This document shows, in pieces, positions 8,233 to 49,100 of a DNA stretch of 64,000 nucleotides (within the stretch, counting starts at the first letter, position 1; each line of letters begins with the position of its first letter). The notes under the pieces were generated by a model. The model had not been told where the DNA came from. It saw nothing but the letters and a program-made list of their open reading frames with translations, and searched no databases. This DNA is from a virus. The stretch covers positions 1 through 64,000 of the IMG/VR virus record IMGVR_UViG_3300008262_000105, one strand, 5' to 3'. The position numbers and the translations under genes are program-made.

Positions 8233-9513
8233 CTAAAGGTTTCCGTAAGTTTTTCCCCAGCTTGCTTTAATAGGAAACCCACCATCTTCCAATATACCTT
8301 TCAATCCCTTAATTAATTCCGTATCCACATCCATAGGTACATCAAATAAGAACGAGTCATAGGTGTAAAGGGTCAAACGTATTTCAGTACCTTTTATATA
8401 CTCCAACACCTTCCTCATTTTCTCAACATTTACTTCCGTTTCAAATGCCTGAAGAAGATAGTTGAATACCTTTTGTGGATTGGCTTGTTCTACCCAACTT
8501 AGTGGAATCAATCGGTTTGGAGTACGGATACAATCACACTCTACCGAATCATCCCAAAAGCGGTCTATGAAATGGGCAACCTTATCAAAGTATGGTATTT
8601 GGCGGAACTCATCATCAATACCACCATATAGTAATCGGAAAGTTACACCCTTAGCCTCATCAATTCCACATCCATATTGGTCAGCTAACCATTGGTGTAC
8701 GTTTCCATCCGGCATTTGGTATCCCACTAACTTACCAATTAGTCGTGGGTGATAAGCGTTGTAGTCCATTTGTAGGAATATCCCATCGGCTATGAAACAA
8801 TCTCTACTACCATCCGATTTGTTAAGGGCGGCATAGTTCACACCACCATGTCTATTGGATGGTCTACCCGTCACCGTAAATGGATTGTATTCGGTGAACA
8901 CTAAGTCACCTTTGAGATGTTTGGAAGCTTGAGGCCATCTATCAATAAATTTTTTCCCATCGACCCGGATCCCATATCGTTCAATATCTGAAAGGGTTGG
9001 TAAGAATATATCGTTATACCAATTATAAGTTTTACTCTTTTGGTTTCTATGTTTAAGTAATTGTGGTTCTATTGCTTCCGCAAGTTTAAGAATGGGAATG
9101 GATTGAATGATGTCCTCTTTGTAACCTTTGTGTAATAAAGGAGCTACTAAGTGTTGTAATGGTTGAGAGTAGTCTATTGTTTCACCGGTCTTTAAGAAAT
9201 AGGCGGTGTCAACATCATTCAGTCCTTCCCTAAGTGTAACAAAAGATTGGAGTAGCTTTTTCTTTTGAAATACCCACTTATCACCGGCGGTATTCAACAA
9301 CCCCCCTATTTGCTCATTAGAGAGTGATAGAGCGTCTGTGTGTTGTTGTGGTACAATATACCTGTCCGATAGGGTTCTTACGAATATAAACGAAATGGTG
9401 GTGTTTAATGGGTGCTTATCATTATCCACCCAAAGCGGATACCAAATGGATGGTTCGGTTTCCAGCTTTACCTTTAATTCGTTTAACTCATCAATAGACT
9501 CAACAATTCTCAT
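8233..9513 (-). CDS. Compact family-A DNA polymerase-like protein
   Basis: 426 residues, resembling the polymerase domain of DNA polymerase I. Visible motifs in order: TGRPSNRHGGVNYAALNK at ~215-232 (Pol I TGR...NLQNIP region); motif A QMDYNAYHPRLIG with metal-binding Asp250; the finger O-helix EAKGVTFRLLYGG at ~286-298 with Lys288; motif C TYDSFLFDV with Asp386 (usually HDE, here YDS). The first ~150 residues may be a reduced exonuclease-like fold but show no clear DEDD acidic set. At 426 residues it is much shorter than T7 polymerase (about 700). The frame extends upstream to 9663, but that part is the tmRNA 3' half; the -7 promoter box lies 4 nt before ATG 9513, so this ATG is the start and the mRNA may be leaderless. 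It could be a replicative, repair or gap-filling polymerase. Confidence 0.82.
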   Translation of the reverse strand: MRIVESIDELNELKVKLETEPSIWYPLWVDNDKHPLNTTISFIFVRTLSDRYIVPQQHTDALSLSNEQIGGLLNTAGDKWVFQKKKLLQSFVTLREGLNDVDTAYFLKTGETIDYSQPLQHLVAPLLHKGYKEDIIQSIPILKLAEAIEPQLLKHRNQKSKTYNWYNDIFLPTLSDIERYGIRVDGKKFIDRWPQASKHLKGDLVFTEYNPFTVTGRPSNRHGGVNYAALNKSDGSRDCFIADGIFLQMDYNAYHPRLIGKLVGYQMPDGNVHQWLADQYGCGIDEAKGVTFRLLYGGIDDEFRQIPYFDKVAHFIDRFWDDSVECDCIRTPNRLIPLSWVEQANPQKVFNYLLQAFETEVNVEKMRKVLEYIKGTEIRLTLYTYDSFLFDVPMDVDTELIKGLKGILEDGGFPIKASWGKTYGNL

Positions 9514-9517
9514 AACA

Positions 9518-9549
9518 CAAATATACGAAAAAATCCCCAAATTACCAAA
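9518..9549 (-). promoter_or_regulatory. Bacteroidota-type promoter of the polymerase-like gene (leaderless start)
   Basis: In the gene direction TTTGG (9549-9545), 19 nt, TATATTTG (9525-9518). The ATG at 9513 is only 4 nt beyond the -7 box, so transcription should begin at or next to the A of the ATG. The -33 part lies inside the loop of the tmRNA terminator hairpin. Confidence 0.75.
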
Positions 9550-9564
9550 TGTAAAATGGGGATT
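9528..9564 (-). terminator. Intrinsic terminator of the tmRNA, overlapping the next promoter
   Basis: In the gene direction an 8-bp stem AATCCCCA / TGGGGATT (9564-9557 with 9539-9532), a 2x2 internal loop, four further pairs TTAC/GTAA and a 5-nt loop, followed by six T at 9533-9528. It starts 7 nt after the encoded CCA end of the tmRNA. Confidence 0.85.
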
Positions 9565-9571
9565 AAAAAAG

Positions 9572-9949
9572 TGGTGGAGATGACCGGACTCGAACCGGTG
9601 TCTTACGAAGTAACCATAATACCAGCTTTTCACACGTTTAGGATAAGGTTTAATCTTATTCACCTTCCAAAATAATTGGGGCCGAATGGTTAGTTCAGCG
9701 CTACCACCAACCGATTTATAGTTTCGGTAAACTTAGGTTTCACTTCTTTTTAAAATCTCACGAGTGATGCGAGAGGTGATTAGGCTGCTACAGCGTAATC
9801 AGCACCTACGAATGCCATAGCATCTTCGAAGGTCCAAGTAGATAATTCTACGTCAGTTATTGTTTGATTCCTTTATTAAAGTGGTTTGAGAACCTTCCCA
9901 CTACGTGTGATACTATGCCTCTCATCGCAATCAATTCCAAAGCATCCCC
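9572..9949 (-). ncRNA. ssrA: Transfer-messenger RNA (tmRNA), phage-encoded
   Basis: About 378 nt. The 5' end GGGGATG pairs with 3' CATCTCC (one G-U) as a 7-bp acceptor stem, and CCA is encoded at 9574-9572. The T arm reads ACCGG-TTCGAGT-CCGGT. Near the 5' end GGAATTGATTGCG matches the conserved D-arm-like region of tmRNA. An internal reading frame ends with codons for GADYAVAA and a TAA at 9782-9780, very close to the usual YALAA proteolysis tag; the frame is open upstream for about 23-27 codons, so the resume codon is not fixed. A hairpin-rich stretch between tag and acceptor is consistent with pseudoknots. Its own promoter ends 13 nt upstream and a terminator follows. It would rescue stalled ribosomes and tag the products; no smpB gene is seen here, so host SmpB is probably used. 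Confidence 0.93.
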
Positions 9950-9962
9950 ATATCAATAAATA

Positions 9963-9994
9963 CAAATATAAGAAAAAATAATTAGATTTCCAAA
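9963..9994 (-). promoter_or_regulatory. Bacteroidota-type promoter of the tmRNA
   Basis: In the gene direction TTTGG (9994-9990), 19 nt, TATATTTG (9970-9963). The mature tmRNA 5' end at 9949 is 13 nt further on, which implies a short 5' leader removed by RNase P. The -33 element lies inside the end of the upstream coding sequence. Confidence 0.78.
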
Positions 9995-23336: not shown

Positions 23337-26300
23337 TTATCCTTTATTATTAAGTATTAATTCTTTAAGTTTTTGTAATTCTTCTTTTAATGTACTTATT
23401 TCTTCAGCTTGCTTATTAATAATATTTTGTTGGTCTTTAATTGATTCTATAAATAAACCAGCAAAATTTCCATAAGCTACACCATACTCATCATTAACAT
23501 CACAATAAGTCACAACTTCAGGAATAACTTCATTAACTTCTTGTGCAATTACCCCTATTTGCCTTTTCTTAGTTTCATCTTTAATTCTATTATAGTAAAC
23601 ACCTCTAATTTGAAGTAATTTATTTAAAGCAGAATCAATAGTTACTATGTTTTCTTTTGCACGTCTATCGGAATAAGCCACAATGTTTTCAGTAGCGTAA
23701 ATACCCCTATTAACATACATACCATATGAAGGTGATGTTGCAGAAGTTCCAACACCTACACAATTGTATGGCCAATAATGATAGAACATCCATCGACCAG
23801 CTTGATAATAGATACCACCATTACCACCACCATCAAACATCAATACAGGTGTGTTACCTACATCAATTAATATACCACCATATCCATTTCTACTACCATC
23901 AATTCTCCATTGTCCATATGTAGAGTTGTTTGGATAAATGTGTGCTGAGTTAATTCCAGAATAGATACCATGGTATCCTTCCAATCTCTGCCATGTGTGC
24001 CAGAATGAATAGTTTGAAGGTCCACTCAATTGAATTAAGATACCACTCATATCATAATCGGAGTATAATCTTACCCCTTCATATGAAGGTCCGTTTGCAC
24101 CTAATTTAATACCCGTATGGAATGCAATTCTTAGGTCAGGATAAGGATACCCCCATCCACCACCTTCTTGGAATATACGATATGCATGTGTACCATTTCC
24201 AGAGTTACCACCAACACCAATAGGCTCCCACCAACGAGAATATAGGTTTTCAATATATGTTGTACCATTAGGGTCTAAATAATATCCAGTATTATTGTAA
24301 TCATATATGATTGGGAATTGGGCTTGTCCACCAATATCCATCAATGCAACCCTACTATTATTAAATCTATATTCTAAAATATCACCACTATCATCACCCC
24401 AGTTAACAACAAGATTGTAATCGTTATAACTACCACCTCTAGTTACCATACCAATTGATGCACCATCAGATGAACGTTGGAAGTGAATACCCCACATTGC
24501 GCCAGGAGAATACATTGGATATGAACCTTGTGTTTGGTCATATCTACCTATCCATGCAACGTCACTCCAGTTTGGATAACCATTTGGTGAGAAGTAATCA
24601 GTTATACGAACAGCTCCTCTAAAGTTTGCTGATGTACCTGAAGTACTTGGGTCAATATACCAATATGTATCATCAGAATCATAGAATATTGGTGCTCTGA
24701 ATGAACCATTTGCCCAAACAGTACTACCATTATCCCAACGTAAGTTCCAACCAACAATTGAACCAGTACCACCCCAACCCAATCTCCAGTCATTTGCTGA
24801 TACGTTTAACATCAATCCCCAATAGGTTGAGTTATTGTTCATAGCGTATGCACCACTATTATTATATCCATAGTGGATTATACTATTACCATACCAAATA
24901 TAAAGGTTTCTAATTCTAGTATCACCAGATGGGTCTAAGTAGAATGTAGTATCATCTCTATCATAAATAAAGTTTGTACGAATCTCATACAAATAAGTTC
25001 TATTACCAGAATAGTGGTTAATATAAGTTTCGTATCCGTTTTGACAATCTAAGTGTAAGTTACCATTTGTAGTTACTACCGATGCCTCACCACCAGGTCT
25101 ACCATTTGTACCAACGTACATATATGCACCCCATGTCCAGTTAGGTCCATGTAGAGTACCACCTCTCATTCTTAAATCAACGTTGGTTGCTGTTGCTGGG
25201 TCTAAGTAATATCCCGTATCGTTTGAATCATAGAATATTGGTGCTCTAAGAGAGTTGCCAGCTTGAAGGTAGTTGTTTACATAAACATAGTTAGATGGAT
25301 ACATTTCCATATTTGTAACACGATTACCAGATGTATTCGTATTATAAAAATACATGTCACCACCTTCACTAAATCTTATATATCCTTGTCCATAGTTAGT
25401 ATTTGGTCTACCAAAGTAATATGCACCACCACCACTATTTAAGTTATTATCAACATTATATCCAAATCCACCACCATTCCAAGTGTTACCAGGTTCAGAT
25501 ACCCACCACTGCATACTTATTCTTTGCCCTGTACCATTGTAAGCTGCTGGTATAGTTAATCTCATTGATGAACTTCCGTGGTCACCTATAACGTGGAATC
25601 TTTTTTCTGGTGCTTCATATCCAACTCCTAAATACCAAAGTCTTGAACTACTATTTGGGTCTACATAATAGTTAGCATCATTTGCATCATAGAATATTGG
25701 TGCTCTCATTTCACCAGCAGCATATATGGTACTATTTGACCAAATATATCCAGTATAATGAGAAATCATTGCTGCAATTCTACTACTACCATTATAACCA
25801 ACCCAACCTGGCATTGAAGGTCCATTTGATTGCCCTACAAAGAATGTTTCAGCACCTACAGTTGAATATGTACCATATGTTTGTCCAGATTGAGAACCTT
25901 TATTAAAATAGAATATACCCCATCCTCTTGCATTTTCTTGGAATATCCAGTTGTTTGCTTCTGATGTATTTGATACTAAGAATGTACCTCCATCATTATT
26001 TTGAATGTGATAAGAATTTAAAATTAATTCATTAAGACGAGATGTAGAGTTAAAATCTAAGTAATAAGAACCATCAGTACTATCTTGAATGTATGGAAGA
26101 TAAAGGTTATTTGAAATTCTTACGTGTTGGTCACCTCTACCAATACTCATTAATATAGTGCTTGTCACACCAGGAGAATCATTGAATATTGTTGTACCAC
26201 CATAAGATGCGTTACCACCTAATTCAAGACCAGTGTGCCATCCTAATGAAAGTCTTGTATATGTAGAATATCCATTATTATACGGAGATTTTACATACAT

Positions 26301-29300
26301 TAAATAATATGGATTATTATCACCTCTTTGTCCCCAACTTATACCACCAAATTGTCCGCCAGGATTTGAAGGGTCTCCTGTACCACTTGACATATTGATA
26401 TGTCTTGTAACACCAGTACCACTTCCAAATCTAAATCCAAAAGTACCATCATCATCATAGAAACGGTCAGTATAAAGTTCAGGTGCTCTAAAACTACTTC
26501 TAGCCCAAGCGATACCATCGTTTCTAACTTCAAGTGCATAACCACCAACACCAACTCCACTTACAGCAAATCCTTCGGAAGAACCACCACCGGTCCAAAT
26601 AATATTTTTTAATGCAGAACCTAAATTCGATGTAGATGTTGTTGTTCTAAATCTAGCACCCCAAACATCCGGTTCATTATTAACATTTATTAATGCGTTA
26701 TTAGGAATATTTAATTGACCTGTAAGAGTTAAGTTTACAAATCTAGAAGTACCAGTAGGGTCAGCTAAGAAACTACCATCATTTCTATCAATAAATCTAT
26801 TAGCTGTTATATCACCTAAAACAGTTGTGTTGGCTGCTAAAGTGTTATCAACTTCTTCAATCTTAAATCCAATAAATTCTGCAGTACCACTATATCCACT
26901 ATACAAATAATTGTGTAAGAAACCTAACTGCATGAATCTTGCATATCCATACCAACTATAATCTGCACCAGAACCAGCTGGTCCAATTGTCATTGTATAT
27001 TCAGTCCAAGAAGAAGGTGCAACACCATACCAATAATAAGGTTGCCCCCAACCACCATTATCAGGTTGAGAATAATCGTATCCAGCTTGCGTAAATGAAA
27101 GATAACAGAATGGATTACCACTTACAGTTCTAACCCATGCAGATACCTTATAAGTTTTTGTTCTATCAATAGGCACCCAACCATTTTGTCTCCAACCTTG
27201 CCATCCACCAGTTCCTCTATGTGAGTATGAACCAATAGGTGAATCGGTTATTCCCGTAACATACTGCATTCCATCCCACACAAATGCACCATCACCAGCA
27301 TGCCAGTTACGAGTTTGATATTTTCCATCTGGTACAAACATTCCAAAGAATCTTGAACCATTAGAATCGTTATATGGTATAGTTCCACCTAATCTTAGTT
27401 GATATAATGTAGATATACTATCACCATTAATATTATATGCAGTATTATCTCTATCAAACCATCTATAAGCATACATATTACTAGCTATGGTTAAATCACC
27501 ACCATTGCTTAGTACCATTATTTGAGATGCCCCATTATTAAACCAATCAAATCCACCAGCACCAAAGTTTCTTAAACGAGAAATACCAGCGTCTTGTATA
27601 AATCCAGTATAGTTAGAAGAATCACCAATATTTAAACCAGTTCCCCAACCAACACCACCAGAACCACCTGCTCTAATACTAACTCTACCAGAAGAAATAG
27701 CAGATACACCATTGAATACAGCTATACCACCATAAACGTAGAATGGAACTGATGTTGCACCAGGTGAACCAACTGATACACCATTTGTAAATCCACCATA
27801 TCCATTTAAATAAAGAGTATTACCATCCCAGCCACTATATCTACCAATTGCTTGTCTACTGAATATACTTAAAGTTGTATCTCCTCCACCTGCTATATTA
27901 ACACTAGTTCCGGCAAAATATCCATCACCACTTTCGTTTACTGAGAATAGTTCATTTGATGATTTTATTGCATTACTACCAACTATGAATTTTTGTCCAG
28001 TTTCATTATTATTTGCATCAATACTTACTCTTACCTCACCAGCTCCTGCCAAATAAAGTGGATTTCCAGATGAGTTGTTTTGTAAAAGTACTACATCATA
28101 TGTATTATCTCTATATAAACCGGCATTAGTATCTGAAAGATAGTATGCTCCAGCATTACCACCGCCGGTTGTTGTTACTTGGTTAAATGTTACGTTATCA
28201 GTTGTTCTAACGTTTTGGTTCATATTAGCCGCAAATGCATACGAAGTTGTATCCATTATACGTTTCCACGCACCCCAAGAAGTACCAGTACCATATCTCA
28301 ACCACATATTACCATTATCGGTAAATCCTAATTCGTTTGCACCACCACCACTCCAGTCAGATGTACTACCATATTTTCTAAAATACATTACACCATTGTA
28401 AGTACCACCATCACTTAAACCATTTGTAGAGTTTTGCTTAAAATCAAATCTTACACCTTGGTTAGCGTTCATTGTTTGCGGTGTAGTTGCAGATGCTCTT
28501 GTATCCTGAACGTTAATATAAGTTGCTGTTGTTGCAGTTGTTGCGTTACCAATAAGGTTTGCTGTTACCTGATTAAAGGTTACATTATCAGTAGTACGAA
28601 CATTTTGGTTCATTAAGTAAACTTCAGTTGCACCTTGTCCCGTATCAATTGTACCACTAAGAACAACGTTGCCAGCTACTTCTAATGTATTATCAGCATA
28701 CCATCTATCAGTTGATTCATTCCAATAGAACGAAACAGTTGATGATGAACCCCTTCTTACTTCAATACCGGCATTTTCGGTTGGTGCTCCAGATGCAAAA
28801 TCTGCATTTAATGTGATGATGTTATCACCTACGTTAAGAGTTGTTGTATTAATATATGTTGTTGTACCACTTACAGTAAGGTCACCACTAATTGTAGCGT
28901 TACCAGTTACCGCAAGAGTTGTACCATCAAATCTTAAATTTGCTTCAACGGTTGCATTTGGTGCAGTTCCGTTTAGAGTGATTACACCATTATCAGTTGT
29001 ACCAGTTAATGATAATAAACCAGAAGTACCACCACTTCCAGATGTACCCGATGTACCGCTTGTACCGGATGTGCCTCCAGATCCCGATGTACCCCCACTA
29101 CCAGAAGTTCCTGATGTACCACTTGTACCGCTTGTGCCAGAAGTACCAGAACTACCACCAGAACCGGCAGTACCTCTAGTTCCAGATGTACCACTTGTTC
29201 CCGATGTACCGCTTGAGCCACCGCTACCAGATGTACCACCACTTCCACTTGTGCCAGAAGTACCAGAAGTTCCTGATGAACCCCCACTACCAGATGAACC

Positions 29301-31712
29301 TCCACTTCCTGCTGTACCGCTTGTACCACCACTACCAGATGTGCCACTTGTTCCGGATGTACCAGAAGTTCCTGATGAACCCCCACTACCTGCTGTTGCT
29401 GATGTACCACCACTACCAGATGTGCCAGATGAACCACCACTTCCGCTTGTACCGGATGTACCAGATGTACCAGATGTACCAGAAGTTCCTGACGAACCCC
29501 CACTACCTGCTGTTGCTGATGTACCACCACTACCAGACGTACCACTTGTACCCGATGTGCCGCTTGTACCAGATGTTCCCGAAGAACCAGCTGAACCTGT
29601 ACTTCCACTATTACCTGTTCTACTAAATGATACAACTAATTGGGCTCCATTTACAGCAGGTAAAGTTCCACTTACCCAAGAAACAGGAATTTTATAATAA
29701 CCACTTGCGGCTGTTACCGCACCTGTTATTACGAATATATTATTAATTGTTCCACTATCTCTGCTCGAAATTGTAAGATAACCTCTTGTTGCTAATGTTG
29801 TACTATCATCCCATGTATCATACCACGCAGTTTGAGTATTTCCACTTTGGTCAATATTATCTATGAATATTTGAGAAATTGCAGCTGGTGATGTATTATT
29901 ATATGCAATACTACCATTACCAGGATCTGCATCAGTATTTGATGTATTAAAATTATATTTTGAACCACCAGCTTGTCCGCTTGTACCAGATGTTCCAGAT
30001 GTTCCAGATGTACCGGCGCTACCTGCACTTCCCGAACTACCTTGTGCACCAGAAGTACCACTTGTACCTGATGTGCCAGAAGTTCCTGATGTGCCGCTTG
30101 TACCAGAACTACCGGATGAACCACCACTTCCTGTACTACCAGCGCTACCGCTAGTTCCAGAACTGCCGCTTGTTCCGTTTGTTCCCGATGTACCGCTTGT
30201 ACCAGATGTGCCAGAAGTTCCTGATGAACCGCTTGAACCACTAGCTCCACCAATACCACTTGTACCTGATGTACCAGAAGTTCCTGAAGTGCCACTTGTT
30301 CCAGATGACCCGCTTGTACCAGATGTACCAGCCGAACCAGTTGTTCCCGAAGAACCCCCTGCTCCACTTATACCTCCACTACCAGACGTTCCTGATGTAC
30401 CGCTTGTACCAGAAGTTCCTGATGTGCCGCTTGTGCCAGATGAGCCTGATACACCAGATGAACCAGTTGTACCAGCTGAACCAGTTGAACCGCTTGTACC
30501 ACTAACTCCAGATGTTCCTGATGAACCACTTTGTCCACTTGTTCCCGATGAACCACCAGAGCCTGATGTGCCGCCAGTTCCAGATGTACCACCACTACCG
30601 CTTGTGCCACTTATACCAGAAGTTCCCGATGAACCACTTATACCAGAAGTTCCTGATGAGCCACCAGAGCCTGATGTACCAGAACTACCACCACTACCAG
30701 AAGTACCTGATGTACCACTTATACCAGATGTGCCAGATGAACCAGAACTTCCTGTTGTACCACTTGAACCACCACTACCAGAAGTACCGCCACTACCAGA
30801 AGTACCAGAGGTGCCGCTTGTGCCAGAAGTACCGCTTGTGCCAGAAGAACCACCACTTCCCGATGTACCGCTTGTGCCAGATGAACCCCCACTACCAGAA
30901 GTACCCGATGTACCCCCACTTCCGCTTGTGCCAGAAGTACCACCACTACCAGATGTACCAGAGGTGCCGCTTGTGCCAGATGTTCCAGAAGTTCCCGATG
31001 AGCCGCTTGTACCAGATGTACCCGATGTACCAGAAGTTGCTGCTGCAAATCTTCTACTTACTCTACCGGTAGTCATATTCAATACCAACACCTCATTTGT
31101 TGTATTATCCGTTGGAATTGAATCTCCAGTAACTGATATAGAACCACTTACAGAAAGAGAACCAGTTATTTCTTGTTTATCACTTAATGCATCACCAAAT
31201 TTGTTTGAACCAGATGAATAAATTACTGATGATGAAATATAAGTTGCGAATAATTCGGTAGATTGTATTCTACCTGCGACTGTTAAATTTTGTGAAATCC
31301 TAACAGACCCAGTAACACCTAAACTACTACTAATTGTAGTTGGTACATTTATTTCCAATCCTCTGTTTGGAGAAATAATAGCTTCAGCTGAACCCGATTT
31401 TAATCTATCTATATCACCAATTGATGATGCCTGAATATTAAATAATCCACTACCATCTCCACGAAATATAGATGCGGTTATTGAAGATGAAATTGATAAA
31501 CTGCCTGAAATTTGCGTATTAGATTTTACTTCAATAGGTAGATTACCAAATGACCTTATTTCATATGATTGTAAACCAGAGGCAGTTATTCTACCGACAA
31601 GGTTTACCGATGCCGATGAGAAGTCTACTATTCTACTTCCGCTTACAAATAAAGAAACTAAACTTGCGCTTAGTTGATTTAAACCATTAGGGTTACCACC
31701 TAAATACTCCAT
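23337..31712 (-). CDS. Giant tail fibre: collagen-like GTSG arrays, YD-YYxDP shaft repeats, C-terminal S74 chaperone
   Basis: 2791 residues. Residues 1-~222 are an N-terminal fibre domain of GSL-x-V-SGS strands, paralogous to parts of the 3790-residue protein. Residues ~225-582 and ~700-897 are GTSG/GSSG collagen-like arrays, split by a ~120-residue beta domain (QTAWYDTWDDSTTLATRGYL, TISSRDSGTI). A LTGTTDNGVITLNGTAPN linker shared with the 3790-residue protein follows. The shaft (~1000-2660) carries about nine copies of a DRFYD-x-D-x3-YYLDP-type repeat. The C-terminal ~110 residues form an intramolecular chaperone of peptidase family S74: SDRRAKENI with candidate catalytic Ser2681, then RQIGVIAQEVNEVIPEVV and a coiled coil. 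The chaperone trimerises the fibre and cuts itself off. Probably a receptor-binding or long tail fibre. It is followed 3 nt later by the 143-residue gene. Confidence 0.88.
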   Translation of the reverse strand: MEYLGGNPNGLNQLSASLVSLFVSGSRIVDFSSASVNLVGRITASGLQSYEIRSFGNLPIEVKSNTQISGSLSISSSITASIFRGDGSGLFNIQASSIGDIDRLKSGSAEAIISPNRGLEINVPTTISSSLGVTGSVRISQNLTVAGRIQSTELFATYISSSVIYSSGSNKFGDALSDKQEITGSLSVSGSISVTGDSIPTDNTTNEVLVLNMTTGRVSRRFAAATSGTSGTSGTSGSSGTSGTSGTSGTSGTSGSGGTSGTSGSGGTSGTSGSGGSSGTSGTSGSGGSSGTSGTSGTSGTSGTSGSGGTSGSGGSSGTTGSSGSSGTSGISGTSGTSGSGGSSGTSGSGGSSGTSGISGSSGTSGISGTSGSGGTSGTGGTSGSGGSSGTSGQSGSSGTSGVSGTSGSTGSAGTTGSSGVSGSSGTSGTSGTSGTSGTSGTSGSGGISGAGGSSGTTGSAGTSGTSGSSGTSGTSGTSGTSGTSGIGGASGSSGSSGTSGTSGTSGTSGTNGTSGSSGTSGSAGSTGSGGSSGSSGTSGTSGTSGTSGTSGTSGAQGSSGSAGSAGTSGTSGTSGTSGQAGGSKYNFNTSNTDADPGNGSIAYNNTSPAAISQIFIDNIDQSGNTQTAWYDTWDDSTTLATRGYLTISSRDSGTINNIFVITGAVTAASGYYKIPVSWVSGTLPAVNGAQLVVSFSRTGNSGSTGSAGSSGTSGTSGTSGTSGTSGSGGTSATAGSGGSSGTSGTSGTSGTSGTSGSGGSSGTSGSGGTSATAGSGGSSGTSGTSGTSGTSGSGGTSGTAGSGGSSGSGGSSGTSGTSGTSGSGGTSGSGGSSGTSGTSGTSGTRGTAGSGGSSGTSGTSGTSGTSGTSGSGGTSGSGGTSGTSGTSGTSGSGGTSGLLSLTGTTDNGVITLNGTAPNATVEANLRFDGTTLAVTGNATISGDLTVSGTTTYINTTTLNVGDNIITLNADFASGAPTENAGIEVRRGSSSTVSFYWNESTDRWYADNTLEVAGNVVLSGTIDTGQGATEVYLMNQNVRTTDNVTFNQVTANLIGNATTATTATYINVQDTRASATTPQTMNANQGVRFDFKQNSTNGLSDGGTYNGVMYFRKYGSTSDWSGGGANELGFTDNGNMWLRYGTGTSWGAWKRIMDTTSYAFAANMNQNVRTTDNVTFNQVTTTGGGNAGAYYLSDTNAGLYRDNTYDVVLLQNNSSGNPLYLAGAGEVRVSIDANNNETGQKFIVGSNAIKSSNELFSVNESGDGYFAGTSVNIAGGGDTTLSIFSRQAIGRYSGWDGNTLYLNGYGGFTNGVSVGSPGATSVPFYVYGGIAVFNGVSAISSGRVSIRAGGSGGVGWGTGLNIGDSSNYTGFIQDAGISRLRNFGAGGFDWFNNGASQIMVLSNGGDLTIASNMYAYRWFDRDNTAYNINGDSISTLYQLRLGGTIPYNDSNGSRFFGMFVPDGKYQTRNWHAGDGAFVWDGMQYVTGITDSPIGSYSHRGTGGWQGWRQNGWVPIDRTKTYKVSAWVRTVSGNPFCYLSFTQAGYDYSQPDNGGWGQPYYWYGVAPSSWTEYTMTIGPAGSGADYSWYGYARFMQLGFLHNYLYSGYSGTAEFIGFKIEEVDNTLAANTTVLGDITANRFIDRNDGSFLADPTGTSRFVNLTLTGQLNIPNNALINVNNEPDVWGARFRTTTSTSNLGSALKNIIWTGGGSSEGFAVSGVGVGGYALEVRNDGIAWARSSFRAPELYTDRFYDDDGTFGFRFGSGTGVTRHINMSSGTGDPSNPGGQFGGISWGQRGDNNPYYLMYVKSPYNNGYSTYTRLSLGWHTGLELGGNASYGGTTIFNDSPGVTSTILMSIGRGDQHVRISNNLYLPYIQDSTDGSYYLDFNSTSRLNELILNSYHIQNNDGGTFLVSNTSEANNWIFQENARGWGIFYFNKGSQSGQTYGTYSTVGAETFFVGQSNGPSMPGWVGYNGSSRIAAMISHYTGYIWSNSTIYAAGEMRAPIFYDANDANYYVDPNSSSRLWYLGVGYEAPEKRFHVIGDHGSSSMRLTIPAAYNGTGQRISMQWWVSEPGNTWNGGGFGYNVDNNLNSGGGAYYFGRPNTNYGQGYIRFSEGGDMYFYNTNTSGNRVTNMEMYPSNYVYVNNYLQAGNSLRAPIFYDSNDTGYYLDPATATNVDLRMRGGTLHGPNWTWGAYMYVGTNGRPGGEASVVTTNGNLHLDCQNGYETYINHYSGNRTYLYEIRTNFIYDRDDTTFYLDPSGDTRIRNLYIWYGNSIIHYGYNNSGAYAMNNNSTYWGLMLNVSANDWRLGWGGTGSIVGWNLRWDNGSTVWANGSFRAPIFYDSDDTYWYIDPSTSGTSANFRGAVRITDYFSPNGYPNWSDVAWIGRYDQTQGSYPMYSPGAMWGIHFQRSSDGASIGMVTRGGSYNDYNLVVNWGDDSGDILEYRFNNSRVALMDIGGQAQFPIIYDYNNTGYYLDPNGTTYIENLYSRWWEPIGVGGNSGNGTHAYRIFQEGGGWGYPYPDLRIAFHTGIKLGANGPSYEGVRLYSDYDMSGILIQLSGPSNYSFWHTWQRLEGYHGIYSGINSAHIYPNNSTYGQWRIDGSRNGYGGILIDVGNTPVLMFDGGGNGGIYYQAGRWMFYHYWPYNCVGVGTSATSPSYGMYVNRGIYATENIVAYSDRRAKENIVTIDSALNKLLQIRGVYYNRIKDETKKRQIGVIAQEVNEVIPEVVTYCDVNDEYGVAYGNFAGLFIESIKDQQNIINKQAEEISTLKEELQKLKELILNNKG
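24245..27470 (-). repeat. Shaft repeats FYD-x-D/N-x3-YYLDP (about nine copies) in the 2791-residue fibre
   Basis: Protein-level repeats such as PIFYDSNDTGYYLDP, PIIYDYNNTGYYLDPNGTT, FIYDRDDTTFYLDPSGDT and FIDRNDGSFLADPTGTS, spaced about 70-150 residues apart. Each is followed by a short strand with (T/S)R-x2-L. The unit probably forms one turn of a trimeric beta shaft. The DNA is divergent enough that this is not a simple tandem repeat. Confidence 0.75.
29018..29612 (-). repeat. Collagen-like GTSG array, distal block of the 2791-residue fibre
   Basis: About 200 residues of Gly-Thr-Ser / Gly-Ser-Ser / Gly-Gly triplets, written in the DNA as 9-12-nt near-repeats with synonymous codon changes. 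Gly at every third position fits a collagen-like triple helix; there is almost no Pro. Confidence 0.9.
29968..31038 (-). repeat. Collagen-like GTSG array, proximal block of the 2791-residue fibre
   Basis: About 357 residues of the same GTSG/GSSG/GSGG triplet pattern, separated from the distal block by a ~120-residue globular beta domain. Non-repeat residues (Ile, Val, Ala, Gln, Asn) occur at single positions and are the only landmarks inside the array. Confidence 0.9.
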
Positions 31713-33754: not shown

Positions 33755-36700
33755 TTAACTCATATTTTTACCAACTACAAATCCATAGTATGTTGTGCCA
33801 CCATTAAACGTAAATATTGTTAATACATCAGTACCAGCTGATGTAAGAATAGGTGCAGTACCACCTGCCCAATCTAAGTTTCCAGGCCATGTGATTGCAA
33901 AAGCACCAGCGTTTACCAATGTTAGTGTAAATCCAAATGCGTTTGAAGGTGGTACATTTGTAAATGATACCGTACCTGCTCCATTAAATTGTCTTCTAAA
34001 ATTATTACCTAATGTAAAATCAATAGAGACACTACCACCCGTACCATAATCATAGAAAGTTTCTCTAAACGTTGTTGATGCTATAAATCCACTTACAGTT
34101 TGGTCTCCCGTTAATGAAAGAGAACTTCCATCAAAAGTTAAATTACTTTCAACAATAGCTGCTGTTGGAACTGCTTGGTATGTTAATAATCCATTATCAG
34201 TTGTACCATTTAAACTAAATCCGTTTGTACCAGACGTACCGGATGTAAAGTTTGGTGGAGTTGTTCCCGAAGTGCCAGAAGTTCCTGTTTGACCCGAAGT
34301 ACCTGCTGTACCAGACGTAAAGCCAGGAGGTGTTGTACCTGAAGTACCAGACGAACCAGTTTGGCCTGAAGTACCTGCTGTACCAGATGTAAAACCTGGA
34401 GGTGTTGTACCTGAAGTACCAGACGAACCAGTTTGACCTGATGTGCCTCCTGTACCGCTTGTACCAGATGTGAAACCCGGAGGGGTTGTACCAGAAGTTC
34501 CTGATGAACCAGCTGCTCCCGTAGAACCTTGCGCCCCAGAACTACCAGAAGTTCCACTACTTCCAAAGAATGTACCATCAAAACCAGAAGTACCTGATGT
34601 ACCATTTGTGCCAGTTGAACCCGATGTACCATTTGAACCTGATGTACCATTTGAACCAGAAGTTCCTGAAGTACCAGAAGTTCCTGAAGAACCAAAATAT
34701 GTACCATCAAAACCAGAAGTACCGCTTATACCAGATGTTCCACTTGTTCCGCTTGTGCCATTTGAACCAGAAGAACCGCTTGTACCGCTTGTACCAGAAG
34801 TACCCGAAGAACCAAAGAATGTACCATCAAAACCAGAAGTACCACTAACACCAGAAGAACCAGACGAACCCGCTGTTCCAGTAGAACCAGATGTACCGCT
34901 TGTACCGGAAGAACCGCTTGTGCCAGAAGAACCAAAGAATGTACCATCAAAACCAGATGTACCGCTTGTACCGCTTGTACCATTAGAACCTGCTAAGCCG
35001 CTTGTACCAGAAGAACCAGACGTGCCGCTTGTACCACTTATACCACTTGTACCATTACTACCAAAGAAAGTTCCATCTAAACCAGAAGTACCACTTGAAC
35101 CTGCGCTACCATCAGTACCACTTGAACCAGAAGTTCCAGCTCCAGAAGTTCCTGAAGAACCACTACTTCCAGATGAACCAAAGAATGTTCCATCCAAGCC
35201 ACTTGTACCACTTGAACCACTAGAACCACTAGAACCAGACGAACCAGCTCCAGAAGTTCCTGAAGAACCACTACTTCCGCTTGAACCAAAGAAAGTTCCA
35301 TCTAAACCAGAAGTTCCTGATGTACCACTACTTCCAGAGGAGCCAGAAGTACCATTTGAACCAGAAGTACCTGATGTGCCATTTGTACCGCTTGTACCAC
35401 TACTACCAAAATATGTTCCATCTAATCCACTTGTACCAGATGTACCAGTAGAGCCAGAAGTTCCTGATGTACCGCTTGTGCCGCTTGTACCTGATGTGCC
35501 GCTTGTGCCACTACTACCAAAATATGTTCCATCTAAACCAGAAGTTCCTGATGTTCCTGTTGTACCACTTGAACCTGTACTTCCCGAAGTACCACTTGTA
35601 CCCGATGTGCCAGAAGAACCTCCGCTACCAGATGTACCCGATGTACCACTACTACCAAAGTATGTTCCATCTAAACCAGAAGTTCCTGATGTGCCAGAAG
35701 TACCAGATGAGCCAGATGAGCCGGCTGTGCCAGTTGTACCGCTTGTACCAGCTGTTCCACTACTACCAAAGTATGTTCCATCTAAACCAGAAGTTCCCGA
35801 TGTACCGCTTGTGCCATCACTACCAGATGTACCTTGAGTACCACTTGTACCAGAAGACCCACTTGAACCAGAAGTACCATCTGAGCCTGAAGTTCCCGAT
35901 GTACCATCTATACCGCTTGTGCCAGAAGAACCTGTTGTACCAGCTGAACCATCCGTTCCGCTTGTGCCACTTGAACCAGCGGTTCCCGAAGTGCCATCTG
36001 AACCCGATGTTCCAGAAGTTCCATCTATTCCAGATGTACCGCTTGACCCCGTAGTTCCAGATGTACCAGCAGAACCATCAGTTCCCGAACTGCCTGCTGT
36101 ACCAGATGAACCAGAAGTTCCATCTGACCCAGATGTTCCCGAAGTTCCATCTATACCACTTGTACCAGCAGAACCAGTTGTACCGGATGAACCAGTTGTA
36201 CCAGCAGAACCAGTTGTACCAGCTGTGCCGCTTGAGCCAGAACTTCCAGAAGTTCCATCTGAACCAGAAGTACCGGATGTACCACTACTTCCAGAAGTAC
36301 CCGATGAACCAGTTGAACCCGATGTACCGCTTGAGCCGGATGTGCCAGATGAACCAGATGTACCATCGGTTCCCGATGTACCACTTGAACCAGACGAACC
36401 GCTTGTGCCGCTTGAACCAGTTGTACCTGATGTACCCGAGCTTCCACTACTTCCGCTTGTTCCAGACGAACCAGATGAACCAGAAGTGCCGGATGTACCG
36501 CTTGTACCGCTTGAACCTGTTGTACCGCTTGAACCAGAACTTCCCGAAGAACCCGAAGTACCATCTGAACCAGATGTGCCACTTGTACCCGATGTGCCAG
36601 ACGTACCACTTGAACCTGTTGTACCGCTTGAGCCAGATGTACCACTACTTCCCGATGTACCCGATGTGCCAGAAGTTCCAGATGTACCACTTGAACCTGA

Positions 36701-39700
36701 TGTACCTGCTAAACCATCTGAACCCGAAGTACCCGAAGTACCTCCACTACCAGATGTGCCGCTTGTACCCGATGTTCCGCTTGAACCAGAACTTCCCGAA
36801 GTACCACCAGTTCCAGAAGAACCGGCAGAACCTCCACTACCAGCAGAGCCTGATGTTCCACCACTACCGCTTGAACCAGAGGTACCTGATGTACCGCTTG
36901 TGCCACCACTTCCAGATGTTCCCGATGAACCGCTTGAACCACCAGAACCAGATGAACCGCTTGAACCTCCACTACCGCTTGTGCCAGAAGTACCACCACT
37001 ACCGCTTGAACCTGATGTACCACCAGAACCAGAAGTTCCACCACTTCCACTCGAGCCACTCGAACCAGATGTTCCCGATGAACCGCTTGTGCCGCTTGTA
37101 CCAGATGTACCACTCGTACCAGATGTACCTGATGTGCCAGAAGTTCCCGATGTACCCCCAGAACCAGCTGTTCCAGATGTTCCAGAAGTTCCTGATGAGC
37201 CGCTTGTACCTGATGTACCCGATGTGCCAGATGTACCACTTGAACCCGTTGTGCCAGATGTACCGCTTGAGCCAGATGTACCAGAAGTTCCTGATGTACC
37301 ACTTGTACCACCACTACCAGAAGTTCCCGATGAACCACTACTACCACTACTTCCGCTTGAGCCAGATGTACCACTTGTGCCAGATGTTCCAGACGTACCA
37401 CTTGAACCAGACGAACCTGAAGTTCCTGATGAACCACTACTACCACTACTTCCGCTTGAGCCGCTTGAACCAGAACTACCCGATGAACCGCTTGAGCCAG
37501 AAGAACCATCCGTACCAGATGTACCTGCGCTTCCAGAAGAACCGCTAGAGCCGCTTGAACCAGAACTTCCAGAAGAACCAGACGAACCAGAACTTCCTGA
37601 ACTACCAGATGTACCAGATGAACCTCCACTACCAGCAGTACCCGAAGAACCAACTGCTGCTACTATGTTTCTTCTTTCTAATTTTTTAGTTAATGAGTTC
37701 CATACAACAACATCCTCTGATGAACCAGATGCTAAGTTTCCTAATAATAAACTACCGCTTACTCCTAAACTTCCACTAATTGTTAAATTAGCGTTTATTG
37801 AAGAATCTTTATTTACTTGTAAGAATGATGCTGTATTTACACCTTCCGCATTTAGAGCGTATAAAGCGTATGATGCGGTAAATGCTAATGAAGCAGTACC
37901 CACCAACATTGATGCGGTTTGTGAATTTTGAACAAAGTTTGATGTATCTACATTTGATGCGTTTTGTGCAAATAATGCGTAAGATGCAGTTGATGCAAAA
38001 GATGCTGATAAAACTGTCATTGAAGAAGTTCTATCGTTTCTTACATAATCAACCAATGTTAATCCGCTTAAATTTTCAACATATGATGCGGTTAATGCGT
38101 AAGAAGAACTAACTGCACCAAACACACTCATTGATGATGTTTGGTCATTTCTTACATAAGCATTGGCATTTGATAATGATGCAGATAATGCTACTAACGA
38201 TGCCGAATCAAATCCAGTAACAGCGTCTGCTAAATCTGCTCTTATTGCATGTGATGCTGAAAGTACAGTTCCAAATACTCTATCACCTTGAATAGTACCA
38301 CTTATTACACTACCACCACTACCAATTACAACATGTCCAGATGTTAATCCAGCGAATATAATTTGTATTGTATCTTCATCAATTGATTTAATTGTTCCAG
38401 GTATAATTTGGTCTTCAGAACCAGTTGCGTAAACCTGAACCATAGGATATAAAATTCCTAAGTTGTGAACAATAGTTAAATTACTTACATTACTAAATGA
38501 TACAGTTTCAGTTAATGAAGTTTCAGGTTGTGGAATGAAATAACCCTGAGTTTCGTTGAATCTTAATATTTGATATTCAGCTGATGCAGTTGGTCCAACT
38601 CCTTGGAAATTATATGTACCTAAGAATGAACCAGTGAATAATGGTGCAAAAACATATTGTGATGCAGTTACTTTATTTAAATAAGCTGTATTTGCTGTAT
38701 TGTATAAATCACCCCAAATAAATGAAGATGTGTTTACTACAAATCCTTTATCAGGCGAAATAGATGCAGTTACGCTTCCACTCTTTAAAATAAATGTTTC
38801 AAATGATAAGTTTGCAATATTAATATTATACAATCCACTACCATCACCAACATATGATGAACCACTTTGTAATATTACATTTCCTCCACTAACAAAAACA
38901 CTACCACTAACAGTTAATGAACCAGAATGTATTCTAGTAGATGTGTTTATATCAAGTCCTAAATTTGGAGATATTACCGCCTGTGCTGACCCAGATTGTA
39001 TTCTATCTAATTTTAGGTCTTGCAAAGCATTTGCAGGGATATTAAATAAACCACCACCATCACCACGATAAAGTGCAGCTGTAATTTCAGTATTAATATC
39101 TAATGTATCCGGTCTTTGTATTGTTCTAGCTGAACCAGATTGGATTCTATCTAATTGAAGGTCTTGAAGTGCTGATGCAGGGATATTGAATAATCCACCA
39201 CCATCGCCAATATATTTAGATGATGATATTGAACCAGATATTTCTACTGAACCAGTAAATTGAGAACCAACCGAACCAGATGGTGCTGATGTTACAACCT
39301 CAAAATATCTTCCACTTTGAACAGAAGCTGTTGCACTACCACTAGCAATTAAAGGAGCTGCTGCCGCTTGTACATTTGTTAATTGAGAACCATCTCCAAT
39401 AAATGAGAATGCTCTTACACTACCACTTACATCAACACTTCCAGTAAACAATGAACCAAATGATGAGCCCGTTTCTGAAGTTGTTACTACAAATTTTCTA
39501 CCACTTGCTACCGATGCAGTTGCCGAACCACTAGCGATAAATGGTGCTGCAGCAGCTTGTACATTCGTAATTTGAGAGCCATCTCCTACAAAGAATTGTG
39601 CAAAAATACTACCACTAACCGATATAGAACCCGTAAATTCAGAACCAATACCAGACCCTGTATAAGCTGTTGTCACTACTAATCTATCTCCACTTGCTAC

Positions 39701-42700
39701 AGATGCTGTTGCACTACCACTAGCAATTAATGGTGATGCTGCTGCTTGTACGTTTGTAATTTGAGAACCATCTCCAATCAAAAAGAATGCTCTCAAACTA
39801 CCACTTATATCCACCGAACCAGTAAATTGAGAACCAAATGCAGATGCGGTAAATGGTGTAATTACCTTAAATCCATCATCAGGATTTACAGATGCTGTTA
39901 CCGAACCTGATTTAATTTCAGTTGATATTAATGCATCTTCGGTTAATGCTGAACGAGGGATTCTTCTAAGATATTGTCCTTCTGCATAGATGAATGATGA
40001 TGAACCAATAAATAATCCACCACTCATATCATTCAAATACAAGCTACCACTAATATCAACTGAACCTGTAAATTGAGAACCAATTTGAGTACTAAAATAT
40101 TCAGTATCTATTGATGATGTGAACGGAGTAATTACTTTAAAACCATAATCAGGTGCTACAGATGCCGTTACTGAACCTGATTTAATTTCAGTTGAAATAA
40201 GTGCATCTTCAGTAAGTGCTGAACGAGGTATTCTTCTAAGATACTGTCCTTCTGCAAATATAAATGAACCAGAATCTATATAAACACTACCAGTTATATC
40301 TAATGAACCTGTAAATCTAGAACCAATTTCAGAACCAGTAAATGGTGTAATTACATTAAATCCATATTCAGGAGAAACAGATGCGGTTACACTACCACTT
40401 TTAATTTCTGTACTAATTAATGCATCTTCTGTTAATGCTGAACGAGGGATTCTTCTTAAATATTGTCCTTCTGCGTAGATGAATGATGATGAATCAATAT
40501 AAACGGCTCCACTTATTGCGTTTACAAATAAGCTTCCACTCATATCAACATCACCTAAGAATGATATTTGTGCAGATGCAGAAACAGCATCTACTACATT
40601 TATAATTCCCTGCATTGATGAATGGAATTGGCAAATATAATAAAGTGTATTTGGTGCGCTACCAGATACTAAGAAAGTAATTGTACCATTGTCTTCACCA
40701 TTATTAGTAACCCAACTATTATATTGCTGAGTTATACCAGTTACAGGAGTATCTTTAATATGAAACGGATGTCCAGTAGCATTTACATTAAATGTATATT
40801 CAGTATTTCTTACTAAAGTTATTGTTGGGTTTGAACCACTAGCTGCTCCACTAAACCAATATCCGTTAGCACCATCATTTATAATATCAAAAGTTCTATT
40901 TAAATCAATAGAGTTAATAATTCTATTTGATGATGAAACTATAAAACTTCCACTTATAGTAGAGAATGTATTTACAACAAATCCAGTATTTGGTGCAATT
41001 GATGCAGTAACTGAGCCTGATGCTAATCTCACAGCATCTTCAACAATTGCTGAACGAGGTATATTAAATAATCCTTGGCCGCTACCACTAAAGAATGCAC
41101 TTGCTGTTGTTAATTCAACACCACCATCTTTAATTTTTAAACTACCACTTATATCTACCGAACCTGTAAACTCAGAACCACTAGCTAAAGATTGTACTCT
41201 AAACCCAAAGTTTGGTGCTACTGATGCGGTTACTGAGCCTGATTTAATTTCAGTTGAAATAAGAGCATCTTCACTTAATGCATTTCTTGGAATATTTCTT
41301 AAATAAGTACCCTCACCAAAATATGCAGATGAAGAACCAAGAATTAATGCTCCGCTAGTTGCGGTTATAATCATACTTCCGGTAATATAAACACTACCAG
41401 TAATTCTTGAACCACTTGGTGCAGATTCAACAACAAATCCTCTATCAGGCAATGCTGAAGCTGTAACACTTCCACTTGCTATTCTAAATAATTCTTGAGA
41501 AAGTGCTGAGAATGGTATATCCGATAATCCCGCACCACTACCACTAAATACAGATGCAGAAACTCCACCAAAAAATCTAGAAGTTCCAGTTACTGTCAAA
41601 CTTCCACTAAAAGTAGAACCACTTGCTACTGAAGTTACAACAAATCCAAAATTAGGAGATACTGAAGCAGTTACACTACCACTAAATATTTTTGAAGTAT
41701 CTAAATCCGAAATTGCTGCAACCGGTATATCAAATAATTGTCTACCACTACCACTAAATGAACCTGTTCTTAAAAATACAGAACCACTTAGGAATAGAGA
41801 ACCGGTAAATTGAGAACCTCTTTCGGTAGATTCAACTCTAAATCCAAAATTAGGAGATACTGAAGCAGTTACAGAACCAGAAAGAATTCTGTTTGTATCT
41901 AATGCATCAGGAGCCAATGCTGTTCTTGGAATATTAAATAATCGTTCACCACTACCACTAAATGATGAGCCAGAAGTTAATTCTATACCTCTAGCCCCAC
42001 TAACAAATAGAGAACCTGTTAATTGAGTGCCAAATTGACCAGATTCTACAATAAATCCTTTATCAGGTCTAGCAGATGCCGTTACCGAACCACTAGCAAT
42101 TTGTGTTGTTTCTAATGGTGGTATAAAAATATTTGTCAATCGGCTACCATCTCCAACAAATGAACCGCTTATATCAAAAGCACTCATTGAAACAGCCGTT
42201 ACACTTTGGGCAGTTACCGAACCGCTAACAAATACGCTACCAGTTATTTCAGAACCTTTTTCTGCAGATTCAACTCTAAATCCATATACAGGCGAAACAG
42301 ATGCAGTTACAGATCCCGATGATATTCTAAATGAATCTCCGGTAAATGCCGAACGTGGAATATTAAATAATCCACCACCATCACCCTGTATAAATGATGC
42401 ACTAATTGATGCCGTTACTTCTCTAGCTACAATTCTATCAGATACAAATAAACTACCACTTATTGTTACATCAGGTCCTCTTTGTAATATTGCATCTACA
42501 ATATTAATTGTACCAGCCATTATACCATGGAATTGACAAATATAATAAAGTGTATTTGGTGCAGATACATCAGGTGTAAATGTTATAATACCAACATCAT
42601 CACCATTGTTAGTTACACCTGTATTATAAGCATTTGATGTACCACTTGTTTGTGCAGTTTTAATCCAAAATGGATGACCGCTAGCATTTACATTAAATGT

Positions 42701-46147: not shown

Positions 46148-49100
46148 TTATATTTGAAGTGCCAATGAGAACGGAGTTACTAATGAGAATAGAGATTTAC
46201 TAAATGTTCTACCCACAAGAGTACCAGTAGCTTGGTTAATACTCAATCCAGTACCAATTCTAAAGTCACCATCTTGGTTACCAGACGTAAAGAATATTCT
46301 ACCACCACCCAATTCCGTAATCTCATAAATTGGGTTTGCTACACCACTACCACCCTGATTTGGAGGAAGTGCTTTAAATGTCACACCTGCTCCATTATAA
46401 GAGTAGTCAATACCAGTTGCTACAATTAAAGAACCAAATTCTTCTAATGGTGCACCTGCTGTTATAAACTCTGCTCTAGTTCTCAAATATCTATTGGTTT
46501 CTAGAGTTTCTAGTCTTTGTTTAAATATTACTTCATCCGCATTTCCGAATTGACCGTTATAGTAAGATGATGCTGCTGCAATTGCTCTCTCATTACCACC
46601 ATATAGTAAATCGGTTGCACATGCATCAACAATCAATCCAGTATCACGAGAACAACTAGCCTCATTATAGACTAAATATGGGAATGCTCCATTTGTGTAT
46701 CCGATTGCTCTTTGTTTTAATTCTTCTTTTCCAGACAATAATCTAACTGCGGCTTGTCTTCTTTTTGTAGATGGTGCTAAGTATGTTAATTGAGTATTTG
46801 TTACTAATTTTTCAGATATTCCTCTAGCAAAATTAATACCATCAACAGTTTGTTTCTTTTGTCCAATTGTACCATTATCGGTATATGATTCGTAAATAGC
46901 AACTGAAGGTATTCTATAATAATAAGACCCAGCTTCAATACTTCTTTCGTTACCACCATAAACTAAGTCAGTTCTGATAGCATCTATAATAAATCCTAAA
47001 TCACGCGAACAACTTGTTTCGTTGTATTGAAGTGTACTCCAAGAAGAACTTAGGAATGTAATAGTTTCTTTTTGTATAAGCGTTTTATTAAATTTCAATA
47101 AATCAACTGTTGATACTAATGATGCCGATGGTTGTTCAAATTTAGGATTTAGAACAACTTTTGAAGATAATCTACCTGCCCATCTTACACCTGTAATAGT
47201 TGGGTCTAATTGATTTGCTTCAGATGGTACACCAGCTTTAGTTGCTTTAGATGGAAATGCAAAATAGTATGAACCAGCAGTTACACTTCTTTCAGTACCA
47301 CCATATAGTAAATCAGTTGCTGCTGCATCTATTAGATAACCAACATCACGAGAACAAGAAGCTTGATTGTAATAAACTCCACTCCAAGAAGAAGATACAT
47401 AAGCTATTGTTTCTGCTGCTATAAATGGTTTATTTTTTCTTAACAAATCAAACGATGCGGAAACTTGCTGAGATGCTGTTACAAATAATATGTTTTGTAT
47501 TACTTTTTGAGCTACTCTACTTGCGTAGTTGATACCTTCTACAGTTTGTTTTAATTGTCCATCACCATCACCATCTCCTAATAAAGTTGCCTTAGATGGA
47601 TATTTGTAATAAAACTCAGCACTCATATATGTTCTTTCAGTACCACCATATAGTAAATCAGTTACTACACCATCAATTATATATCCAACATCTCTACGAC
47701 ATTTTTCCTGATTATAATTAAATGTACTCCAACTAGCAGTTAAGTACTGAAGTGTTTCTTCTTGTATAAATTGTCTATTATTTCTTAACAATTCTACCGA
47801 AGCCGATACCGATTGAGATGCCGTTGTAAATGTTGTATTTTTAATAATATTAACAGCTACATCTTTTGCAAAATTAATTGCGTTTACAGTTTGTTCTTTT
47901 TGAGAACCTGTTGCTAAAGAAGAATAAATATAATAATATGTTCCAGCTTTTGCACTTCTTTCGTTACCACCATAAAGAATATCAGTTGCTACCGCATCTA
48001 TAATATATCCAACATCACGTTTACATCTATCTAAACTATATGTAAATTCATTCCAAGAAGAAGTAATATAAGAAAGAACTTCAGCTTGTATAAATGGTTT
48101 GTTTTGCTTCATTAATGCATGTGATGCTGAAGCGTGTGCTGAGGCTGTAACAAATAGTGTATTAACAATTACTTTTTGTGCTAATTGCCCAGCATAACGG
48201 ATACCATCTAATGTTTCATCTAATTGTGAACCAGTTGCCGATGATGGATATAAGAAATAGTATTTACCTGCTGTAATTGTTCTTTCGTTACCACCATAAT
48301 ATATATCCGTTGCTACCGCATCTAAGATATATCCAACATCTCTCTTACACTTAGATTCATCATAAACAAATGAAGAAGTTGTATTTGAACCAGTTACCCA
48401 AGAAGAACTAATATATGCAATAGTTTCGTTTTGTATAAATGGTTTGTTTTGATTTAATAATGTCCAAGCATTTGTTCTCTCCAATGATGCAGTTTGATAC
48501 TGAACATTTTGTAGAACTTTTTGCGCCATTTTACTTGCGAAGAATATTCCATCTAAAGTAAAGTTCAATTGAGATGTTGTGGCTTGTGATGCTGATTCAA
48601 AGTAGAACTTACCATTTACAATAGATGCAGAATCCACACCAAATAACATATCTTCGGCTGCTCCACTAATAATTAAACCAACATCTCTCTTACACTTAGA
48701 TTCATCATAAGAAGCTGTACTCCAAGAAGAACTAATGTATGCAATAGTTTCATTTTGAATAAATCCTATGTTTTCTTTTAACAAATTGTAAGCGTACCAT
48801 ACATTTGATGCAGTTGATGGTGATGAATAATTTACAGGAGAACCTGCTACACCAATACCATTTGCAATTATATTTGTTACAATTGAAATAGATGATGAAA
48901 TTAATGATGCTTCATAATCAGTACCAAATGATGAACTTAAATATTGAGATGTATTAGTAAATTTAATACTTTCTGATGTATTTGCTACTAATGTAGGTAT
49001 TACTCCCAATCCATTTTCAACAATATTTGTTACAACCGCAAATGAAGAACTTACTCTATTAACTTCATAAGCAGATGAAGCATTTGATGAAGTATATTGA

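Follow-up and report, generated by a model that had tools for sequence, protein, structure and literature searches.

The window analysed here comprises positions 1 to 64,000 of a virus fragment in IMG/VR, 65,216 bases long, that is T4-like (a myophage) and encodes a tail sheath, the sheath stabiliser gp15, baseplate proteins, a gp32-like SSB and a family A DNA polymerase-like protein. At 9572–9949 on the minus strand, ARAGORN and the Rfam model RF00023 place an intact one-piece tmRNA gene (ssrA) of 378 nt. The first-pass annotation had called a phage-encoded tmRNA at exactly these coordinates, with the strand unstated, but had put it inside a virion gene region; the gene in fact occupies the border between the tail/baseplate genes (10–64 kb) and the DNA polymerase/SSB genes (0–9.5 kb). 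The neighbouring DNA polymerase family A-like gene (8233–9513, minus strand; 426 amino acids from the ATG) matches PHROG 17 (DNA polymerase; E=5.6 × 10−12), and its product shows 27% identity to DNA polymerase A of Flavobacterium phage immuto. The tail region also contains giant genes on the minus strand, at 46148–60184 (4678 amino acids) and 33755–45127 (3790 amino acids, with seven collagen-like stretches); a further minus-strand gene at 23337–31712 encodes a 2791-residue protein, a probable tail fibre, whose C-terminus is chaperone-like and which contains long GTSGTSG repeats.

RF00023 aligned to the gene from end to end (1–374 of 374) with a score of 76.9 bits (E=4.3 × 10−28) against a curated cutoff of 47 bits, and ARAGORN, which matched the gene and its tag independently, agreed on both ends, so that the covariance-model check suggested at first pass came out in favour of the call. 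Both programs found the ordinary order, from the 5′ end to the CCA, and not the permuted order of a two-piece tmRNA. In gene numbering, the acceptor stem is formed by 1–7 and 368–374, followed by A73 at 375 and the encoded CCA at 376–378 (5′ strand, including G3 of the G3·U70 alanine identity pair, at window 9943–9949; 3′ strand with A73 and CCA at 9572–9582; alignment pairs 1–454 to 7–448), and the T arm spans 351–367 (9583–9599), with the stem ACCGG/CCGGT and its loop in the GTTCGAGTC region. Among 29 relatives, changes on both sides were observed in 17 of 51 predicted pairs, including pairs of the acceptor and T stems; compensatory changes in the T stem are many (for example CG/UA/GC/AU at alignment columns 432–446), and the tRNA-like domain described by RF00023 is thereby present, with both stems paired. 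The alanine identity elements are likewise in place: the third pair is G3·U70 in 29 of 29 relatives, never altered, and A375 (A73) is invariant in the tmRNA alignment.

Upstream of the tag, a pseudoknot, PK1, was read by hand rather than machine-predicted at 9866–9901 (gene positions 49–84; S1 GUGG/CCAC at 49–52/66–69, S2 GGUUC/GAAUC at 56–60/80–84); it ends 11 nt before the resume codon, against a tmRNA norm of about 12 nt. Pseudoknots lie outside the scope of RNAalifold, and the other tmRNA helices covary. The resume codon GAC, at gene position 96 directly after AAUAACU, opens a conserved frame for DVELSTWTFEDAMAFVGADYAVAA whose stop ends at position 170 (9780–9854, minus strand). Judged by its sequence, the tmRNA carries all the features required for alanylation, ribosome entry and tagging. 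At least three distinct sequence types of PK1 occur among otherwise similar tmRNAs (alignment columns 50–90), which suggests module exchange between phages within the tmRNA gene.

The gene has transcription signals of its own, both of which the first-pass annotation had located correctly. The full Bacteroidota-type promoter motif (TTTGGNA-N14–21-TATNTTTG) occurs five times in the 64-kb window against 0.09 expected, and one occurrence, TTTGGAAATCTAATTATTTTTTCTTATATTTG (9963–9994, minus strand; TTTGG...TATATTTG), ends 13 nt 5′ of the gene start and is kept in relatives. On the minus strand, which is the gene strand, the motif precedes only the tmRNA, the DNA polymerase gene (9518–9549, found in relatives as well) and the gp32-like SSB gene (3–422), in front of which two promoters of this class lie at 528–629; none was found on that strand in the tail block of 10–64 kb. 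Downstream, an intrinsic terminator folds at 9526–9564 (minus strand) as an 8-bp stem, AAUCCCCA/UGGGGAUU, with an inner 4-bp stem and then a U run; its hairpin (9532–9564; −15.9 kcal/mol, z −3.4) begins 7 nt past the CCA and was passed over by a generic terminator scan because of that scan's loop limit of 8. Most relatives have a comparable hairpin, and its 3′ arm overlaps the next promoter, that of the DNA polymerase gene; this overlap is itself preserved in most relatives. Only about 4–8 nt separate the −7 box from the ATG of the DNA polymerase-like gene (9514–9549, minus strand), and the mRNA of this gene is therefore probably leaderless.

Because the promoter class is common to the SSB and DNA polymerase genes and absent from the tail block, it supports early expression of the tmRNA together with the replication genes. 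The 'early-type' promoter of the first-pass annotation thus stands as a class distinct from that of the tail genes, while the timing drawn from it fits the pattern rather than being demonstrated by it.

Relatives were collected through two neighbouring genes, a pseudoknot motif and a tag pattern. Within 182 fetched loci (many of them with a contig in common), the tag motif occurred in 30 nucleotide and 21 peptide versions, and the second search, by tag pattern, raised these numbers to 40 and 25, respectively. The second group consists of contigs of up to 271 kb, including jumbo phages, in which the tmRNA is located elsewhere within a different gene order; many contigs of this group have arrays of about 20–25 tRNAs, arrays of about 14–25 tRNA genes lie near the tmRNA in related jumbo-phage contigs (loci L416, L419, L422, L426, L429, L430, L436 and L443), and in the window's own subgroup no tRNA array was seen. 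A nucleotide search of the tmRNA gene against annotated phages gave no match. In a tmRNA tree with the tag included, the phage tmRNAs fell on the Bacteroidia side; support for their single origin was 97/83 with the tag and a weak 55/55 with the tag cut out, and a single origin is therefore not claimed. Contigs often break off within about 100 bases of the conserved pseudoknot (for example L135, L145, L159 and L190), probably because its sequence is common to co-occurring phages and interrupts assembly.

The promoter type and the nearest isolates indicate that this phage family probably infects Bacteroidota. The isolates in question are Flavobacterium phage immuto and, with less clarity, one deposited as a Microcystis phage. 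Relatives, immuto among them, are without a tmRNA, so the gene is non-essential for this type of phage. Microcystis phage Mel-JY01 (PP395634.1) groups with Bacteroidota-type myophages by its sheath and polymerase, and its true host may be a Bacteroidota companion of the cyanobacterium Microcystis.

The most distinctive part of the gene is the peptide that it encodes. ARAGORN predicts a tag of 24 residues in the window, a length that rests on the program's choice of resume codon and with which the conserved AAUAA context and the in-frame indels agree, and the phage versions range from 23 to 26 residues. A resume codon and an open tag frame with a stop and a degron-like end are present across the 25 peptide versions, the C-terminus being A-x-A-A in 25 of 25 and mostly YAVAA. 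The additional length lies in 14–17 N-terminal residues with the core ELST[WM]TFEDxMxFxG, in which T, S or N precedes [EDG][DS] and hydrophobic residues follow, so that from its residue pattern the extension looks like a short capped helix. Across the 40 nucleotide and 25 peptide versions, pN/pS was 0.39 when the tag was read in frame, as against 1.56 and 2.12 for the two shifted frames; the extension alone (ELST..FVG) gave 0.38 and the C-terminal part 0.40. Variation at third codon positions of the tag is roughly double that at first and second positions, and length changes are always in frame. Since pN/pS is low only in the tag frame and the indels keep that frame, the extension is translated and selected at the protein level. 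We rejected the idea that the tag copies the end of another phage protein, as each genome contains it a single time, within the tmRNA. Alternative ARAGORN tags such as VNKPEHYLSAP proved to be misreadings, the conserved frame being present in the same sequences.

The tag was then set against those of the presumptive hosts. Of 61 sampled Bacteroidota genomes, 60 carry a tmRNA of their own, and 48 of the 50 tags read from this sample are 8–10 residues long (for example GENNYALAA, ANDYSYAMAA and DNNYSYRLAA), the other two calls giving odd tags, one of them of 14 residues; at 23–26 residues, the phage tag falls outside this short-tag class (about 8–10 residues). The long-tag pattern, in its 6-residue-spacing variants only, did not occur in any of 395 Bacteroidota genomes, nor did any of 84,980 genomes contain the phage pseudoknot motif CTAACCATNCGGCCCCAATT. 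With host tags short, and with both the long-tag pattern and the pseudoknot motif absent from the bacterial genomes, the tag is not that of the host and was not recently copied from it. The first-pass annotation had proposed comparing the tag with host tags and had itself overlooked the oddity that this comparison reveals: being more than twice the host length and conserved, the tag gives the impression that the virus marks unfinished proteins in its own way. The fold, G3·U70, the A-x-A-A tag end and the resume context (AAUAAAC/AAUAACU) are shared with Bacteroidota ssrA, whereas the tag length, the phage-only pseudoknot motif and the phage promoter and terminator set the phage gene apart.

A search for smpB, also advised at first pass, found none in 27 virus and phage records that include the window's record and its relatives (a Bacteroides control genome has smpB), so SmpB would presumably be supplied by the host. 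ClpP was absent from the tmRNA-bearing phages with the exception of the 484-kb LR756508.1, and a recognisable SspB was present in none of 41 Bacteroidota genomes.

Taken together, these data make it probable that the gene is a working tmRNA of Bacteroidota type in a lineage that would comprise T4-like, partly jumbo, freshwater myophages. It would be transcribed from its own host-sigma-type promoter alongside the replication genes, probably early in infection, and stop at its own terminator; host alanyl-tRNA synthetase would charge it through G3·U70, and host SmpB would deliver it to ribosomes held up by broken messages or by ones lacking a stop codon, a situation expected to arise often during the destruction of host mRNA or when mRNA is cut by a defence RNase. 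Translation would resume at GAC or GCA and append the phage-specific tag, whose A-x-A-A end may serve as an ssrA degron, while the conserved, short, hydrophobic and probably helical extension may alter how the tagged product is handled, possibly as a second handle for a protease or adaptor. In the simplest view, the phage would gain extra rescue capacity with a tag of its own during takeover. The suggestion that the tmRNA selectively tags host proteins is speculation, since a tmRNA does not discriminate among stalled ribosomes; host proteins could be degraded selectively only as a side effect of which ribosomes stall.

A bolder form of this proposal, which we put forward tentatively, is that a large lineage of jumbo myophages of Bacteroidota has remodelled trans-translation by means of a composite tag, whose conserved extra peptide module is recognised by a particular factor of the host or of the phage. 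If this is true, products rescued by the phage would meet a fate apart from that of products rescued by the host.

The same peptide could instead be a targeting or interaction signal that sends unfinished proteins to a partner or compartment of the phage's choosing, with no role in degradation. The conserved capping box and hydrophobic pattern (ST.TFEDxMxF) would suit such a function, as would the lack of phage ClpP in these records and of an SspB adaptor in the 41 Bacteroidota genomes; the tag end argues against it, as the A-x-A-A terminus common to all versions, mostly YAVAA, is the usual ClpX-type ssrA degron form, and we regard a purely targeting role as unlikely. A lower probability still attaches to the view that the tmRNA is an ordinary one and the length of its tag accidental, the extension being neutral filler or kept only for RNA structure. 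Bacterial tag lengths do vary, and the tag-coding region can be folded into hairpins, but the selection is frame-specific, with 0.38 for the extension against 1.6–2.1 in the other tag frames, and the hairpin at alignment columns 137–151 is broken in several sequences that preserve the peptide.

The tmRNA might also be a decoy, tying up host SmpB, AlaRS or stalled ribosomes and thereby shutting off host trans-translation. An RNA made by phages without smpB would have to compete with host tmRNA for SmpB, and the TLD-only tmRNA of mycobacteriophage DS6A (PMC4131195; PMC11915505), likewise a phage RNA competing for SmpB and one for which such a role has been proposed, provides a precedent. The DS6A form, however, has no tag frame, whereas every version of the present tmRNA has kept its tag frame, resume context and stop intact. 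Purifying selection acts on this frame, and no other conserved part is as distinctive as the tag; because the tag is the selected part, a decoy is very improbable. That the gene is a decaying, functionless host ssrA copy left by integration or imprecise excision can be set aside, even though tmRNA genes often serve as integration sites (for example PMC3203893), as it is contradicted by the covariation and selection results, by conservation with compensatory changes and an own promoter and terminator across a diverse phage lineage, by a tag unlike every host tag sampled and by the lack of any integrase noticed in the window.

Phage tmRNAs as such are known, and the new part is the tag. They have been recorded in the Bxz1 group, phage G and DS6A (PMC4131195) and in huge phages (PMC7162821), and were counted in 402 of 18,146 genomes, given as 2.3% (PMC9004378), in agreement with the first-pass remark that few phages encode one. 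A 2025 census of 97,179 tmRNAs found 10 residues to be the commonest tag length, with extremes of 2 residues (PMC11915505), and a partial literature search did not turn up any description of an extended, conserved tag in phages. The tmRNA of the Pelagibacter phage Melnitz (PMC9004378) similarly belongs to an aquatic T4-like myophage and is probably early, but is a permuted two-piece form with a glutamine riboswitch, in contrast to the one-piece form with extended tag described here. Complete phage-borne tmRNAs are also carried by the Bxz1/Wildcat mycobacteriophage group, Bacillus phage G and Streptomyces phage CeilingFan; the latter two, which were not among the records covered by the SmpB search, have ARAGORN tags of 13 residues each (AKLNITNNELQVA and ANSNVASAYALAA), shorter than the 23–26 residues here. 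Long tags are a feature of Bxz1 and of some mycoplasmas.

Most phage tmRNA cases are single observations, whereas in the present case an entire lineage has retained the gene and its promoter together with an unusual peptide, and the selection can be measured. As 60 of 61 sampled Bacteroidota possess a tmRNA whose tag is not that of the phage, the question of why phages carry tmRNA becomes testable: phage and host rescue events are separable by tag-specific mass spectrometry and antibodies, and the extra module offers a defined bait for its reader.

The uncultured phage LR756508.1, a distant relative by its sheath and polymerase, has a one-piece tmRNA in the same place (92434–92880), with an open tag frame of about 36 codons, GVNNADYESAGFTAEDFAQMDGESLYHGSERKPAAV, ending ...KPAAV. 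It differs in the AAV end of its tag and in the ClpP that the phage encodes, and is a single example on a long tree branch, with no relatives of its tag found by pattern search. As a lead, it raises the prospect that longer tags may recur in huge phages.
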